DNA from: [Leptolyngbya] sp. PCC 7376
GTDB taxonomy: Bacteria > Cyanobacteriota > Cyanobacteriia > Cyanobacteriales > MRBY01
Length of the DNA stretch: 64,000 nucleotides
Assembly: GCF_000316605.1 (NCBI RefSeq)
Contig: NC_019683.1
Location: forward strand, 1,534,036 to 1,598,035
Direction of reading: 5' to 3'
Shown here: positions 24,775 through 38,888 of the stretch, piece by piece
Layout: each line of letters opens with the position of its first letter
Numbering within the stretch: the stretch's first letter is position 1
Position numbers and translations under genes: made by a program
Notes under the pieces: model-generated
Seen by the model: the letters and a program-made list of their open reading frames with translations, nothing else
Database searches by the model: none
What the model was told of the DNA's origin: nothing

Positions 24775-26040
<1,266 letters not shown>

Positions 26041-31213: not shown

Positions 31214-33397
31214 ATGCTTGCCAAGGTTGCAGAACGCCAAATGCATTGGGTGCGGTGGGGACTAACAATCGGTTGGTTTCTGTTGATTATGTCACTCTTT
31301 TTTGATCCCGTTTCCAGCCAGTTCACTGCGCCAGATCATCCATGGAGTCCCATGCGCCTCGATCCTAGCCAATGCATTTTGGTGCAGGGTGAATGTCTCC
31401 CTGAACAATCCTATGCCCTTGGTGCACCCATCTTTTGGGGATTAATTGTCCCCAGTGCAATTTTTATTTTGCTGGTTTTTGGGCACGAATTTTGGCGACG
31501 CATTTGTCCGCTATCGTTTATTTCCCAAATTCCCCGCGCGATGGGTTGGGAGCGTAAAAATAAGCGTGAAAACAAAAAAACAGGAAAAGTTCGATATGAG
31601 CTCGTCAAGGTCAAAAAAGATTCTTGGTTAGCCAAAAATCATCTGCCTCTGCAATTGGGTTTGTTTTACGTTGGTCTCAATTGCCGCATTCTCTTTGTGA
31701 ACTCAAATCGCTGGGCGCTGGGTTCATTTTTGCTATTCACTATTGCGGCGGCTCTAACAGTTGGTTTTCTGTATGGCGGTAAGTCTTGGTGCCAATATTT
31801 CTGTCCGATGGCACCTGTTCAACAAATTTATGCTGAACCGAGAGGTCTTCTTGCCAGTACAGCTCACGAGGGCGATCGCCAAACCATTAGTCAGTCAATG
31901 TGCCGCACCGTCAGCCCCGAAGGTAAAGAGATGACTGCTTGTGTGGCTTGCAACAGTCCTTGCATTGATATTGATGCCGAGCGCTCCTACTGGCAGAAAC
32001 TCACTGATCCTCAGCAACAATGGCTTTATTACGGATATGTTGGCGTGGTTGTCGGCTATTTTCTGTTCTATTTTTTGTATTCCGGCAGTTGGGATTATTA
32101 CCTTTCTGGCACTTGGAGCCACGACGAAACGCAATTAAATACCCTCTTAAAACCTGGCTTATATCTCTTTAATCAAGCCATTCCCATCCCCAAAATTGTT
32201 GCAGCACCAATCGTTTTGGCGGCCTTTGGATTTGCGGGTTATGGTATCGGTCGCCAAATTGAATCACGCTACAAAGTTTATCAACGCAAAAAACATCGCC
32301 CTCTCAGTTCGGAAGAAGTGCGTCACCGTGTTTTCAGTGTGAGCACCTTTTTTGTCTTCAATTTCTTCTTCCTCTTTGCAGGCCGAAACTACATTGATTT
32401 ATTGCCCGCACCATTGCCTTACCTATTCCCGACCTTAATCGCGGTTTGCAGTACTCTTTGGCTATATCGCACTTGGCAGCGGAGCAATAACCGTTACAAC
32501 CGTGAAAGTCTGGCGGGTCGCCTCCGTAAACAATTACGCAAACTAAATCTCGACACTGCGCAATTTCTGGAAGGTAAATCCCTAGATGAACTCAACGCAG
32601 ATGAGATTTATGTCTTAGCGAAAGTGTTGCCAGGCTTCTCGAAAGAAAAGCGCCTGCAAACATACAAGAGCATTATGCGTGAGTCTATTGAGGAGGGCTA
32701 TGTGGCGGTAGATCAAGTCCTTGAAGGGTTACAACAAATGCGAAAGGAGTTGGATATTTCCGAGAAGGAGCATGAGCAAATTCTCGATGAACTGATGGCT
32801 GAAAATCCGGAACTCTTCCGCAGCGATCGCCTAAACAGCAGAGAAGATTCATTGCGTTTAGAAAGTTTCCGGGAGACCTTCCTCGAAACTGTTTTGGAGT
32901 CTTGGAAAGATCACCCAGAGGAATCCCATATTCAGGAGTTGGCACAGGTTTTCCAAAAACATGGCTCGCCTGAAGACCTGAAAAAGCTCATGGCTTATCT
33001 CTCTAAGAGCGATCAGAACATGGTGGCTTATCTCCGACAGGAATATGGCATTTCCGATGATGATGAGATGATCGCCCTCAGACGCACTGAACCCGATGAA
33101 CTCTGGCAGGTGATCGCCCTAAATATTGACGTCATCAATACTTTGGTGAGCGATAGTACCGAATCCGAAAATTCCGCCCTACGGAAACTCTTCTCTGAAA
33201 TCGATACCGATGGCTCTGGTGGCATTGATATTGACGAATTAAAAACGTATATCAAAAACATCACTCCCGATTTCACTGATGATCAGATTGAAATGATGTT
33301 TAATCGCGCCGATATTATCGGTAATAACATGATCACCTATGAAGAGTTTTGTGTACTGTTCAAAAAAATTGGCCAACAACGCATAGCCTTAAAATAG
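31214..33397 (+). CDS. Polytopic 4Fe-4S membrane protein with C-terminal EF-hand domain
   Basis: A 727-residue fusion. The first 420 residues hold about seven membrane segments in a NapH/CcoG-like arrangement. SWCQYFCPMAP (CxxxCP) follows a segment near residue 190, and TACVACNSPCID (CxxCxxxC) near residue 240 completes a ferredoxin-type cluster. RRICPLSF near residue 98 is a further CP motif. Residues 450-640 are charged and helical. An EF-hand loop DTDGSGGIDIDE (664-675) matches the Ca-binding consensus. A second, DIIGNNMITYEE (700-711), lacks the position-3 acid and is probably weak. Calcium control of membrane electron transfer is inferred. Donor and acceptor are unknown. Confidence 0.85.
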   Translation: MLAKVAERQMHWVRWGLTIGWFLLIMSLFFDPVSSQFTAPDHPWSPMRLDPSQCILVQGECLPEQSYALGAPIFWGLIVPSAIFILLVFGHEFWRRICPLSFISQIPRAMGWERKNKRENKKTGKVRYELVKVKKDSWLAKNHLPLQLGLFYVGLNCRILFVNSNRWALGSFLLFTIAAALTVGFLYGGKSWCQYFCPMAPVQQIYAEPRGLLASTAHEGDRQTISQSMCRTVSPEGKEMTACVACNSPCIDIDAERSYWQKLTDPQQQWLYYGYVGVVVGYFLFYFLYSGSWDYYLSGTWSHDETQLNTLLKPGLYLFNQAIPIPKIVAAPIVLAAFGFAGYGIGRQIESRYKVYQRKKHRPLSSEEVRHRVFSVSTFFVFNFFFLFAGRNYIDLLPAPLPYLFPTLIAVCSTLWLYRTWQRSNNRYNRESLAGRLRKQLRKLNLDTAQFLEGKSLDELNADEIYVLAKVLPGFSKEKRLQTYKSIMRESIEEGYVAVDQVLEGLQQMRKELDISEKEHEQILDELMAENPELFRSDRLNSREDSLRLESFRETFLETVLESWKDHPEESHIQELAQVFQKHGSPEDLKKLMAYLSKSDQNMVAYLRQEYGISDDDEMIALRRTEPDELWQVIALNIDVINTLVSDSTESENSALRKLFSEIDTDGSGGIDIDELKTYIKNITPDFTDDQIEMMFNRADIIGNNMITYEEFCVLFKKIGQQRIALK

Positions 33398-37013: not shown

Positions 37014-37772
37014 GGCGTTGGTGAAATGAGAGAGGAGGAGTAAGCTGTCAAATAAAAAATGAACTGTCCTGAATGCCATTCAGAGCATATCTGCAAAAAC
37101 GGCTTTCGTCATGGCAAGCAAAACCATAAGTGTAAAGATTGTGGTCGCCAATTCGTTGCTCATCCCCAAACTCACCGTGGTTATAGTGACGATGTCCGCC
37201 GCCTCTGCCTCAAAATGTATGGCAATGGCATGGGATTAAGAGCAATTGCGCGAGTCACTGATATTCACCACACCACGATTCTTCATTGGGTGAAACAAGT
37301 TAGTACTATTTTGCCTGATGCCTATGACCCGGAATCGACACCGCAAGTAGGCGAGATAGATGAATTACAAACATTCGTCGGCTCGAAAAAAACAGTCTGC
37401 ATATGGATAGCCGTAGACCATTGCAAACCCGGTATTTTGGCATGGAGCATCGGAGATAGAAGTGCTCTGACCTTCAAACTATTGTGGCAAATAGTGAGCT
37501 GTTGGCAATGTTATTTTTACGTGATTGATGGTTATCCTGTTTACGCTATGTACATTCCTGAGGAAGACCGAATTATCAGCAAGACATATATGACCAGAGT
37601 AGAAGGAGAAAACGGTCGTTTAAGAAACTATCTAGCTCGTTTACATCGCAAAACACTTTGCTATTCAAAGTCGGTGGAAATGTTAGCTAACTCTCTCAAG
37701 TTACTGATTCACTACCTCAAGTTTCAGGATGTACCTGTGCCGTTGAGAAACATCCCTTAACTCACCAACGCC
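37014..37772 (+). mobile_element. IS1-family element with intact transposase
   Basis: The 759-bp element is bounded by imperfect inverted ends. GGCGTTGGTGA at 37014-37024 matches the reverse complement of 37762-37772. It carries one full-length transposase ORF. I see no target duplication next to these ends (left CAGAATAG, right ATTTTTTG), so the boundaries may be off by some bases or the flanks rearranged. Confidence 0.8.
37059..37760 (+). CDS. IS1-family transposase, single reading frame
   Basis: A 233-residue transposase. The zinc ribbon is CPECHSEHICKNGFRHGKQN followed by CKDCGRQF. A helix-turn-helix (GMGLRAIARVTDIHHTTILHWV) comes next, and the DDE-type catalytic core has acidic residues in GEIDELQTF, YFYVIDGYP and RVEGENGRLR. 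Classical IS1 makes InsAB' by a frameshift; here the two parts are already one frame, as in several cyanobacterial IS1 relatives. It looks functional. It is related to, but distinct from, the broken IS1 copies at 10169 and 38114. Confidence 0.92.
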   Translation: MNCPECHSEHICKNGFRHGKQNHKCKDCGRQFVAHPQTHRGYSDDVRRLCLKMYGNGMGLRAIARVTDIHHTTILHWVKQVSTILPDAYDPESTPQVGEIDELQTFVGSKKTVCIWIAVDHCKPGILAWSIGDRSALTFKLLWQIVSCWQCYFYVIDGYPVYAMYIPEEDRIISKTYMTRVEGENGRLRNYLARLHRKTLCYSKSVEMLANSLKLLIHYLKFQDVPVPLRNIP

Positions 37773-38113
37773 ATTTTTTGAATGCTGTGATTATAGAAAC
37801 TGAGGTCTGAAGCTTTCTGCTCAATGATTATGATGCCTTTAGCAGTGATATCACTCACGTTCGACTGTCCAAGTTAAGGTCTTTCGATGACGAGACTGGC
37901 TGTTGTAGAAAACGGAAATTGCATCAAGCTTCTTAACTGACTTATCAGACTTGTTTAATTGAGTTGAAATGGCCGCTTTATTATATGGCATTGCAGAATA
38001 GAGGTATGAATTGAGTCCACATCCTCAATTCATACCTCTATTCTGCAATGCCGGAAATGTTTTTTTACCTAAGTAACTTTTTTGTCTCTCTGATTTTTGC
38101 TATTTCACCATTC
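37773..38113. other. Gap between two IS1 elements, with a palindrome
   Basis: A 341-bp interval without a gene. Its one feature is the 66-bp palindrome at 37987-38052. The rest, including the stretch from 37790 to 37980, shows nothing I recognise. It may be debris from older insertions. Confidence 0.5.
37987..38052. repeat. 66-bp perfect palindrome made of two IS1 ends (MITE-like)
   Basis: Two 29-base arms (37987-38015 and 38024-38052) are exact reverse complements around the 8-base centre TCCACATC. The outer 25 bases of each arm are identical to the left end of the IS1 relic at 10169-10193 (GGCATTGCAGAATAGAGGTA and onward). It is an internally deleted element reduced to its ends, or a MITE mobilised by that IS. 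No target duplication is evident. Confidence 0.9.
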
Positions 38114-38888
38114 GGTAGTCCTAAAGAGGTAAGGATAATAAGAAGGGAAGTTAAGTCACCAGTCTCCCTCAAATGCTTCGTTGTCCCAACTGTCAATCCA
38201 CAAAAGTTGTAAAAAATGCTCGTATCCATAACGGCAAACAAAACCATAGATTTCGAGACTGCGGTAGACAATTTGTAGAAAATTCTCAACAGAAAATCAT
38301 CTCTTCTGACACCACGGAGTTAATTGATAAGTACTCCTCGAAAAGATTCCTCTGGCTGGAATTGCTCGAGTTTGTGATGTCTCAGAACCCTGGTTACAAA
38401 GTTATGTCAACCAGAAATACGAAGCCATACCGCAGCAAGTGCACATATGCTCGAAACAAAAGGACAATTGACGATTCAATGCGATGAGATGTGGTCTTTT
38501 GTCGGCAATAAACATCAGAAATATTGGATTTGGCTGGCCTTAGATGTCGATAGTCGCGAGATTGTGGGAGTCTACGTGGGAGACCGTTCTGAGGCAGGAG
38601 CATTAGGGCTATGGCAATCTTTACCCGGAGTTTATCGCCAATGCGCAGTAGCTTACAGTAATTTTTGGTCTGCTTATGGCCTCATCTTCCCTAGCAAACT
38701 TCATCAATTCGTAAGCAAAGAGACAGGAAAGACAAGTTATATTGAGCGATTCAACTGTACTTTGAGGCAAAGAGTTTCGCGCTTGGTGAGAAAGACTTTA
38801 TCCTTTTCTAAGAAAGTCGCAAACCACATTGGAGCTATTTGGCTTTTTGTTCATCACTACAAATCATCCTTACCTCTTTAGGACTACC
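38114..38888 (+). mobile_element. IS1-family element with 8-bp target duplication
   Basis: The 775-bp element has inverted ends GGTAGTCCTAAAGAGGTAAG (38114-38133 and, inverted, 38869-38888). It is flanked by perfect 8-bp direct repeats CACCATTC (38106-38113, 38889-38896), a duplication length typical of IS1. The transposase gene inside has two frameshifts. Confidence 0.95.
38173..38881 (+). pseudogene. IS1-family transposase with two frameshifts
   Basis: It reads in three frames. The zinc ribbon CPNCQSTKVVKNARIHNGKQN and CGRQFVENSQ lead up to ELIDKYSS. After a shift near 38330 it continues LLEKIPLAGIARVCDVSEPWLQSYVNQ to PQQVH. After a second shift near 38447 it continues MLETKGQLTIQCDEMWSF to the end, with acidic residues in CDEMWSF and IERFNCTL. 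One shift could be the programmed IS1 frameshift, but two indicate decay. Confidence 0.85.

Follow-up and report, generated by a model that had tools for sequence, protein, structure and literature searches.

The gene at 31214-33397 (+ strand, ATG start, 727 aa) of the window, as we call the whole 64,000-nucleotide stretch of DNA that was analysed, encodes a membrane protein with Fe-S-type cysteines and a C-terminal pair of EF-hands. We suggest that, within a modular family of membrane Fe-S electron transfer proteins, it is the form that senses calcium, with the EF lobe gating electron entry. Gating, donor and acceptor are all things that we infer, and for this reason we hold our confidence in this reading at about even. 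The protein most likely forms a calcium-tuned electron entry point at the cyanobacterial membrane.

Architecture of the fusion protein

The gene is present in a single copy in its 5,125,950-base genome, and its start methionine is aligned and invariant across 18 EF-type sequences. AlphaFold models of the protein, with mean pLDDT of 86.3 (71 aligned sequences) and 83.0 (48 aligned sequences), have eight long helices within residues 1-421, followed by a helical region and a C-terminal EF lobe in the form of a helix-loop-helix pair. In brief, an eight-helix membrane redox core (residues 1-441, 31214-32536, conserved in 71 sequences) is followed by a predicted cytosolic helical domain between core and sensor (residues 442-645, 32537-33148) and then by the EF lobe, all on the + strand. 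Many of the cNMP-binding and short relatives described below align to about residue 540-630 of the helical domain. The helices are moderately hydrophobic: three of the eight reach a best 19-residue mean hydropathy of 1.88-2.34, and the other five only 1.44-1.57. If the N-terminus is placed inside, 15 and 7 Lys/Arg fall in the two long inner loops, against at most one in each outer loop. Based on this positive-inside count we place the C-terminus in the cytosol, so that both termini are proposed to be cytosolic.

Six cysteines of the core, C98, C193, C197, C230, C246 and C250, are invariant in 71 sequences and remain so when rhizobial relatives are added (52 sequences), and C243, C54 and C61 are conserved in at least 90%. 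C98 sits after the second helix in a C-P pair that is also invariant. C193 and C197 are part of a W-C193-x3-C197-P motif within a Fer4_5 match (PF12801, residues 172-208, 31727-31837, + strand), which scores 26 bits against a gathering cut-off of 22; the match is weak in the family, seven of eight scanned relatives and one of five cores in a further set being below the cut-off. We read C230-x12-C243-x2-C246-x3-C250 (31901-31963, + strand), on the cytosolic side, as a single putative [4Fe-4S] site and C98/C193/C197 as a second candidate redox site. It should be noted that model pLDDT falls below 50 at residues 244-252, which overlap the proposed [4Fe-4S] region. The nearly invariant C54-x6-C61 in the first outer loop (31373-31396, + strand) may form a disulfide. 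Comparison of the window gene with that of a 90% identical congener gave an omega of 0.047 in the core (residues 1-440).

We did not find a convincing PDB match for the core fold by sequence profile, Foldseek (best E 0.18) or VIA (best Z 3.9), and a search with the whole protein returned mostly calmodulins and other EF-hand proteins. The protein scores 15.7 bits against the NapH model (TIGR02163, curated cut-off 213.05) and 11.1 bits against the CcoG/RdxA/FixG model (TIGR02745, curated cut-off 316.7), and was not assigned to either family. No protein of the window genome matches TIGR02745 above its cut-off. These scores bear on the possibility, which we place well below even, that the core works as a reductase of metals or quinones, as CcoG does with Cu(II), its sensor tuning metal reduction and not the electron supply of photosynthesis or nitrogenase. 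Such an enzyme would agree with our preferred reading apart from the acceptor. The CxxxCP motif in common with NapH-type proteins speaks for it, as does CcoG itself, called a cupric reductase in the available part of PMC8456105, whereas the missed CcoG and NapH cut-offs speak against it.

The EF lobe matches EF-hand_7 (EF-hand pair, PF13499) at residues 654-716 with an E-value of 2.5e-12 and 47.4 bits (cut-off 30), and calmodulin chains match residues 649-715 with an E-value of about 1e-13. E-values and conservation together confirm an EF-hand pair beyond chance. Loop A (residues 664-675, 33203-33238, + strand) reads D-T-D-G-S-G-G-I-D-I-D-E and is canonical; an alignment of 18 EF-type proteins shows no change at D664, D666, S668 or E675. 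Loop B (residues 700-711, 33311-33346, + strand) reads D-I-I-G-N-N-M-I-T-Y-E-E, with an Ile, which is not a ligand, at position 3. The comparison of both loops covered 36 different EF-type proteins (37 rows, with the window gene counted twice), a set picked by BLAST similarity to residues 641-727 of the window protein, which would miss any relative with an EF lobe too decayed to be recognised. In this set loop A has D1, D3 and S5 in 36/36 and E12 in 35/36, the remaining protein having D12. Loop B has D1 in 34/36 (Phe in L006 and L019), D5 in 33/36 and E12 in 36/36; at its position 3, 28 proteins have Ser or Asn, six have Gly and two, both from the genus of the window, have Ile. The window gene and its congener differ in residues 650-720 at 17.2 of 170.8 nonsynonymous sites and, with dS saturated, at 32.8 of 42.2 synonymous ones, which points to purifying selection on the EF region too, looser than that on the core. 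A group of 812-819-residue proteins carries two EF pairs.

An earlier note on this DNA had described a polytopic Fe-S-type membrane protein joined to an EF-hand pair with one consensus and one degenerate loop. The eight-helix model, the conserved cysteines and the Pfam matches bear this out, and the loops are as described: loop B has no ligand at position 3 in the window protein and its congener and is altered in some other genera, and the loop A ligands are kept in orthologues, with the one change of E12 to D12.

Sensor domains and distribution of the family

Homologues with an E-value of 1e-50 or lower were found in 169/388 genomes of the class and 156/388 of the order. At least 35 of the 388 genomes have a match that covers loop A, ending at residue 697 or later. 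A further EF genome, G430, has a locus with the same EF form as L019, its match ending at residue 654. Searches of phages gave no match. Besides EF-hands, the core may carry at its C-terminus a cNMP-binding domain, an FHA domain together with a cNMP-binding domain, an FHA domain alone, or no module. The form with a cNMP-binding domain is the commonest without EF-hands, and the one that was scanned also has HEAT-like repeats. The relatives on rhizobial plasmids have a C-terminal FHA domain or end after the core. Judged from the sequences, the fusion is real and conserved, with its loop A ligands preserved. The earlier note expected it to be conserved across cyanobacteria, and it is present in several genera and families, but the EF-hand is not a fixed part of the protein: it belongs to a set of C-terminal sensors that replace one another.

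In a tree of 116 cores, made by a quick method with SH-aLRT support only, the 21 EF rows fall together; two changes are needed, one of which is forced by well supported branches. L010, an EF-less Adonisia protein of 628 residues, falls among the EF rows and has probably lost the lobe. Two more EF-less proteins, L011 and L205, adjoin these rows. Five other genomes of the genus of the window hold one EF form, one cNMP form and, in three cases, no match at an E-value of 0.001 or lower; the gene is therefore dispensable. The Crocosphaera genome G670 encodes the EF form and a second member, whose open frame of 964 codons is as long as those of cNMP forms. In a Crocosphaera MAG, one cNMP-type relative (L025, 3077-5980) is split into two ORFs of 286 and 681 aa, and is either a broken gene or an assembly error.

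The absence of the lobe from most relatives and from L010, and the single canonical loop of the proteins in the genus of the window, would fit an EF-hand that is a structural or docking module, its loop A binding calcium or magnesium constitutively and keeping the lobe folded with no switching. We find this doubtful, since most EF-type proteins retain a second ligand-bearing loop, a two-pair, calmodulin-like form exists, and the C-termini of the relatives hold known signal-sensing domains. A calcium-sensing lobe remains our preferred reading.

Literature searches gave no account of this membrane-core family in titles or abstract openings among the matches listed. The product of slr0593, a 'cAMP binding membrane protein' that may belong to the cNMP form, is given as decreased under iron deprivation, at 3 and 12 h, in the accessible part of PMC3516471.

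Two genomes of one contig each, G600 (1,443,806 bases) and G612 (1,491,611 bases), have nifH above the curated cut-off and gave no psbA match, whereas four comparison genomes each have one. Both encode one member of the core family in an open frame of 818 codons. In the two EF pairs of the G600 member, loops 1, 3 and 4 are canonical; the G612 member is known by its length and match extent alone. We take both genomes to be UCYN-A. They appear to be nitrogen-fixing organelle genomes, and their size and content fit the UCYN-A MAG of 1.44 Mbp in the available part of PMC11637426, which cites a title on the lack of photosystem II. The calcium form is thus kept in presumed UCYN-A genomes with no psbA match, which makes a role in the ferredoxin and nitrogenase economy worth testing. 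We speculate, tentatively, that the proteins form an undescribed family of second-messenger-gated electron valves, in which one Fe-S core is combined with swapped readers of calcium, cyclic nucleotides or phosphothreonine, and that the calcium form outlasted the extreme reduction of UCYN-A, a nitrogen-fixing organelle in which calcium could then govern the passage of electrons between the membrane and a pool of ferredoxin that supplies nitrogenase.

Gene neighbours and the proposed electron route

On a plasmid of Leptolyngbya boryana, a sensorless core has a Ser/Thr kinase gene on one side and, on the other, a gene that encodes an FHA-FAD-NAD-2Fe-2S reductase. The order of kinase, sensorless core and FHA reductase recurs in cyanobacteria (L190, 4094-9207; L195, L196, L198 and L200-L204), and suggests phosphothreonine-dependent assembly. 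On plasmids of Rhizobium etli 8C-3 and Agrobacterium fabrum, the gene for a core with FHA is followed by a reductase gene annotated as 'hybrid-cluster NAD(P)-dependent oxidoreductase', and the genes opposite the core bear the annotations cytochrome c peroxidase, ATP-binding protein and response regulator. In the R. etli set, Pfam found domains of the FAD/NAD/2Fe-2S, di-haem CCP/MauG, histidine kinase and receiver kinds. This rhizobial cluster (L187, 4872-14276, and L188, 4966-14011) of a two-component system, a CCP/MauG di-haem protein, an FHA-tipped core and an FAD/NAD/2Fe-2S reductase resembles a redox system under regulation.

We surveyed the neighbours of 170 distinct cores, 137 of which have at least 800 bases downstream; the other 33, with shorter flanks, show no reductase. 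Within 4 kb and on the same strand, 28 cores have an FAD/NAD/2Fe-2S reductase gene (10/13 with FHA and cNMP, 16/31 sensorless, 2/2 with FHA), and none does among the 38 EF-type, 52 cNMP-only and one ferredoxin-fusion cores, all counted where the downstream flank is 800 bases or longer. The fractions do not come from a random sample, since many genomes have flanks of only about 1.5 kb, contig ends truncate some 'sensorless' forms, and 20 extra regions, with short and long forms, were hand-picked. The Pfam domains were confirmed on four of the neighbour reductases, and FHA is N-terminal in the three cyanobacterial ones scanned. The protein of L105 (1336-3246), on the longest end branch of the core tree, has a 2Fe-2S ferredoxin domain fused to the C-terminus of its core (E 1.3e-12). 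Reductase neighbours and this fusion, both in sister subfamilies, are the best evidence we have from sequence, and support the view that the core moves electrons. The same neighbours and fusion make it unlikely that the core is itself a sensor, its Fe-S site reading redox state in a signalling complex of C-terminal modules, kinase and FHA partners that transfers no electrons in bulk, even though 11 of the 28 distinct cores with a reductase nearby also have Ser/Thr kinase genes within 4 kb and FHA, cNMP and EF modules are signalling domains.

For the EF clade the redox role is borrowed from these relatives, because no reductase lies near the 38 EF-type genes surveyed. Nor did we find an operon partner for the EF-type genes: across 27 loci, which include copies of one sequence, no neighbour family occurs in more than three and no position is common to most. 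A few neighbour clusters (1, 3, 4, 5, 7 and 8) recur across genera, and these include ORFs that we take to be ClpC-like and squalene/phytoene-synthase-like. An ORF of 865/868 aa downstream of the EF-type gene, presumably aconitase, is common only to the window and its congener. The ORF at 24847-26040 of the window, some 5 kb upstream of the EF-hand gene, is presumably petH-like, a ferredoxin-NADP reductase with a CpcD-like N-terminus. A conserved link to petH was rejected, as a BLAST search with this ORF against the flanks found a 170-aa ORF and nothing else, in a single Crocosphaera sequence that stands under three locus ids. Two ORF clusters at 37059-38881 of the window, with a zinc-finger start and the second copy split, are presumably small IS transposases.

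The window genome gave FHA-only and ferredoxin-only matches and no full dedicated reductase. A reductase search of 10 further genomes (E<=1e-10) gave a full or near-full match in G132, G195 and G670, ferredoxin pieces in G600, G612 and G040, an FHA piece in G005, and no match in G311, G610 or G113. The window genome, G005, G311, G600, G610, G612 and G113 carry the EF form with no full reductase match, and the EF-carrying G670 has one elsewhere in its genome. Matches to 2Fe-2S ferredoxin are present in the window genome, G600 and G612, and as a nearby or full reductase match is missing, we propose ferredoxin as donor of the EF form.

We suggest that electrons would enter the core on the cytosolic side via the proposed [4Fe-4S] at C230/C243/C246/C250, and would then move to the C98/C193/C197 site and on to an acceptor in the membrane or outside it. 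In the sister subfamilies the donor would be the dedicated NAD(P)H-FAD-[2Fe-2S] reductase; in the EF and cNMP clade it would act in trans and is probably a soluble [2Fe-2S] ferredoxin. Calcium bound to the C-terminal EF lobe may alter its contact with the helical domain or the core, and so raise or lower the entry of electrons, by analogy with the EF domain of NOX5. If this is true, swapped calcium, cyclic nucleotide and FHA sensors link signals directly to electron flow, without transcription, and the swapping of sensors on one redox core offers a clean comparative test. To our knowledge, few direct effectors of calcium or cAMP have been described in cyanobacteria. Both are second messengers there, according to the accessible part of PMC10117731.

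Comparison with known systems

The window protein resembles NapH/MauN and CcoG/RdxA/FixG in being polytopic and in its Fer4_5 motif WCxxxCPxxP. The profile of the window protein aligns with that of E. coli NapH over 28 columns around WCxxxCP (hhalign probability 27.6, E 6.5e-4). E. coli NapH has Fer4 diclusters, whereas Pfam finds none in the window protein, which has one four-cysteine set; it also differs from NapH and CcoG by the eight helices of its model, its C-terminal helical domain and its sensor. The NapH/CcoG likeness claimed in the earlier note thus holds for the short CxxxCP motif and does not extend to the ferredoxin diclusters or to the curated families.

The reductases next to two sister cores match oxygenase-type reductases (GbcB, the PRK10684 NADH oxidoreductase and PaaE), but score below the cut-offs, and the three cyanobacterial ones differ in having an N-terminal FHA domain. 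CSE, which the accessible part of PMC10117731 describes as a small EF-hand sensor of multicellular cyanobacteria, likewise has two EF-hands, but is small and lacks a fused membrane core.

A likeness in principle is offered by NOX5 of Cylindrospermum stagnale, and here the earlier note, which knew of no established cyanobacterial pathway for calcium-gated electron transfer at a membrane, has to be corrected. According to the available part of PMC7317449, NOX5 has a calmodulin-like EF domain on a cyanobacterial membrane electron transfer protein, and electron flow is activated when its EF-hands 3 and 4, with calcium bound, attach to the dehydrogenase domain. The window protein, in contrast, has Fe-S-type cysteines and its EF lobe at the C-terminus, and Pfam (E up to 1) finds in it no ferric-reductase-like haem or FAD/NADPH dehydrogenase family. 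The principle has a precedent in cyanobacteria, in NOX5, on a different scaffold.
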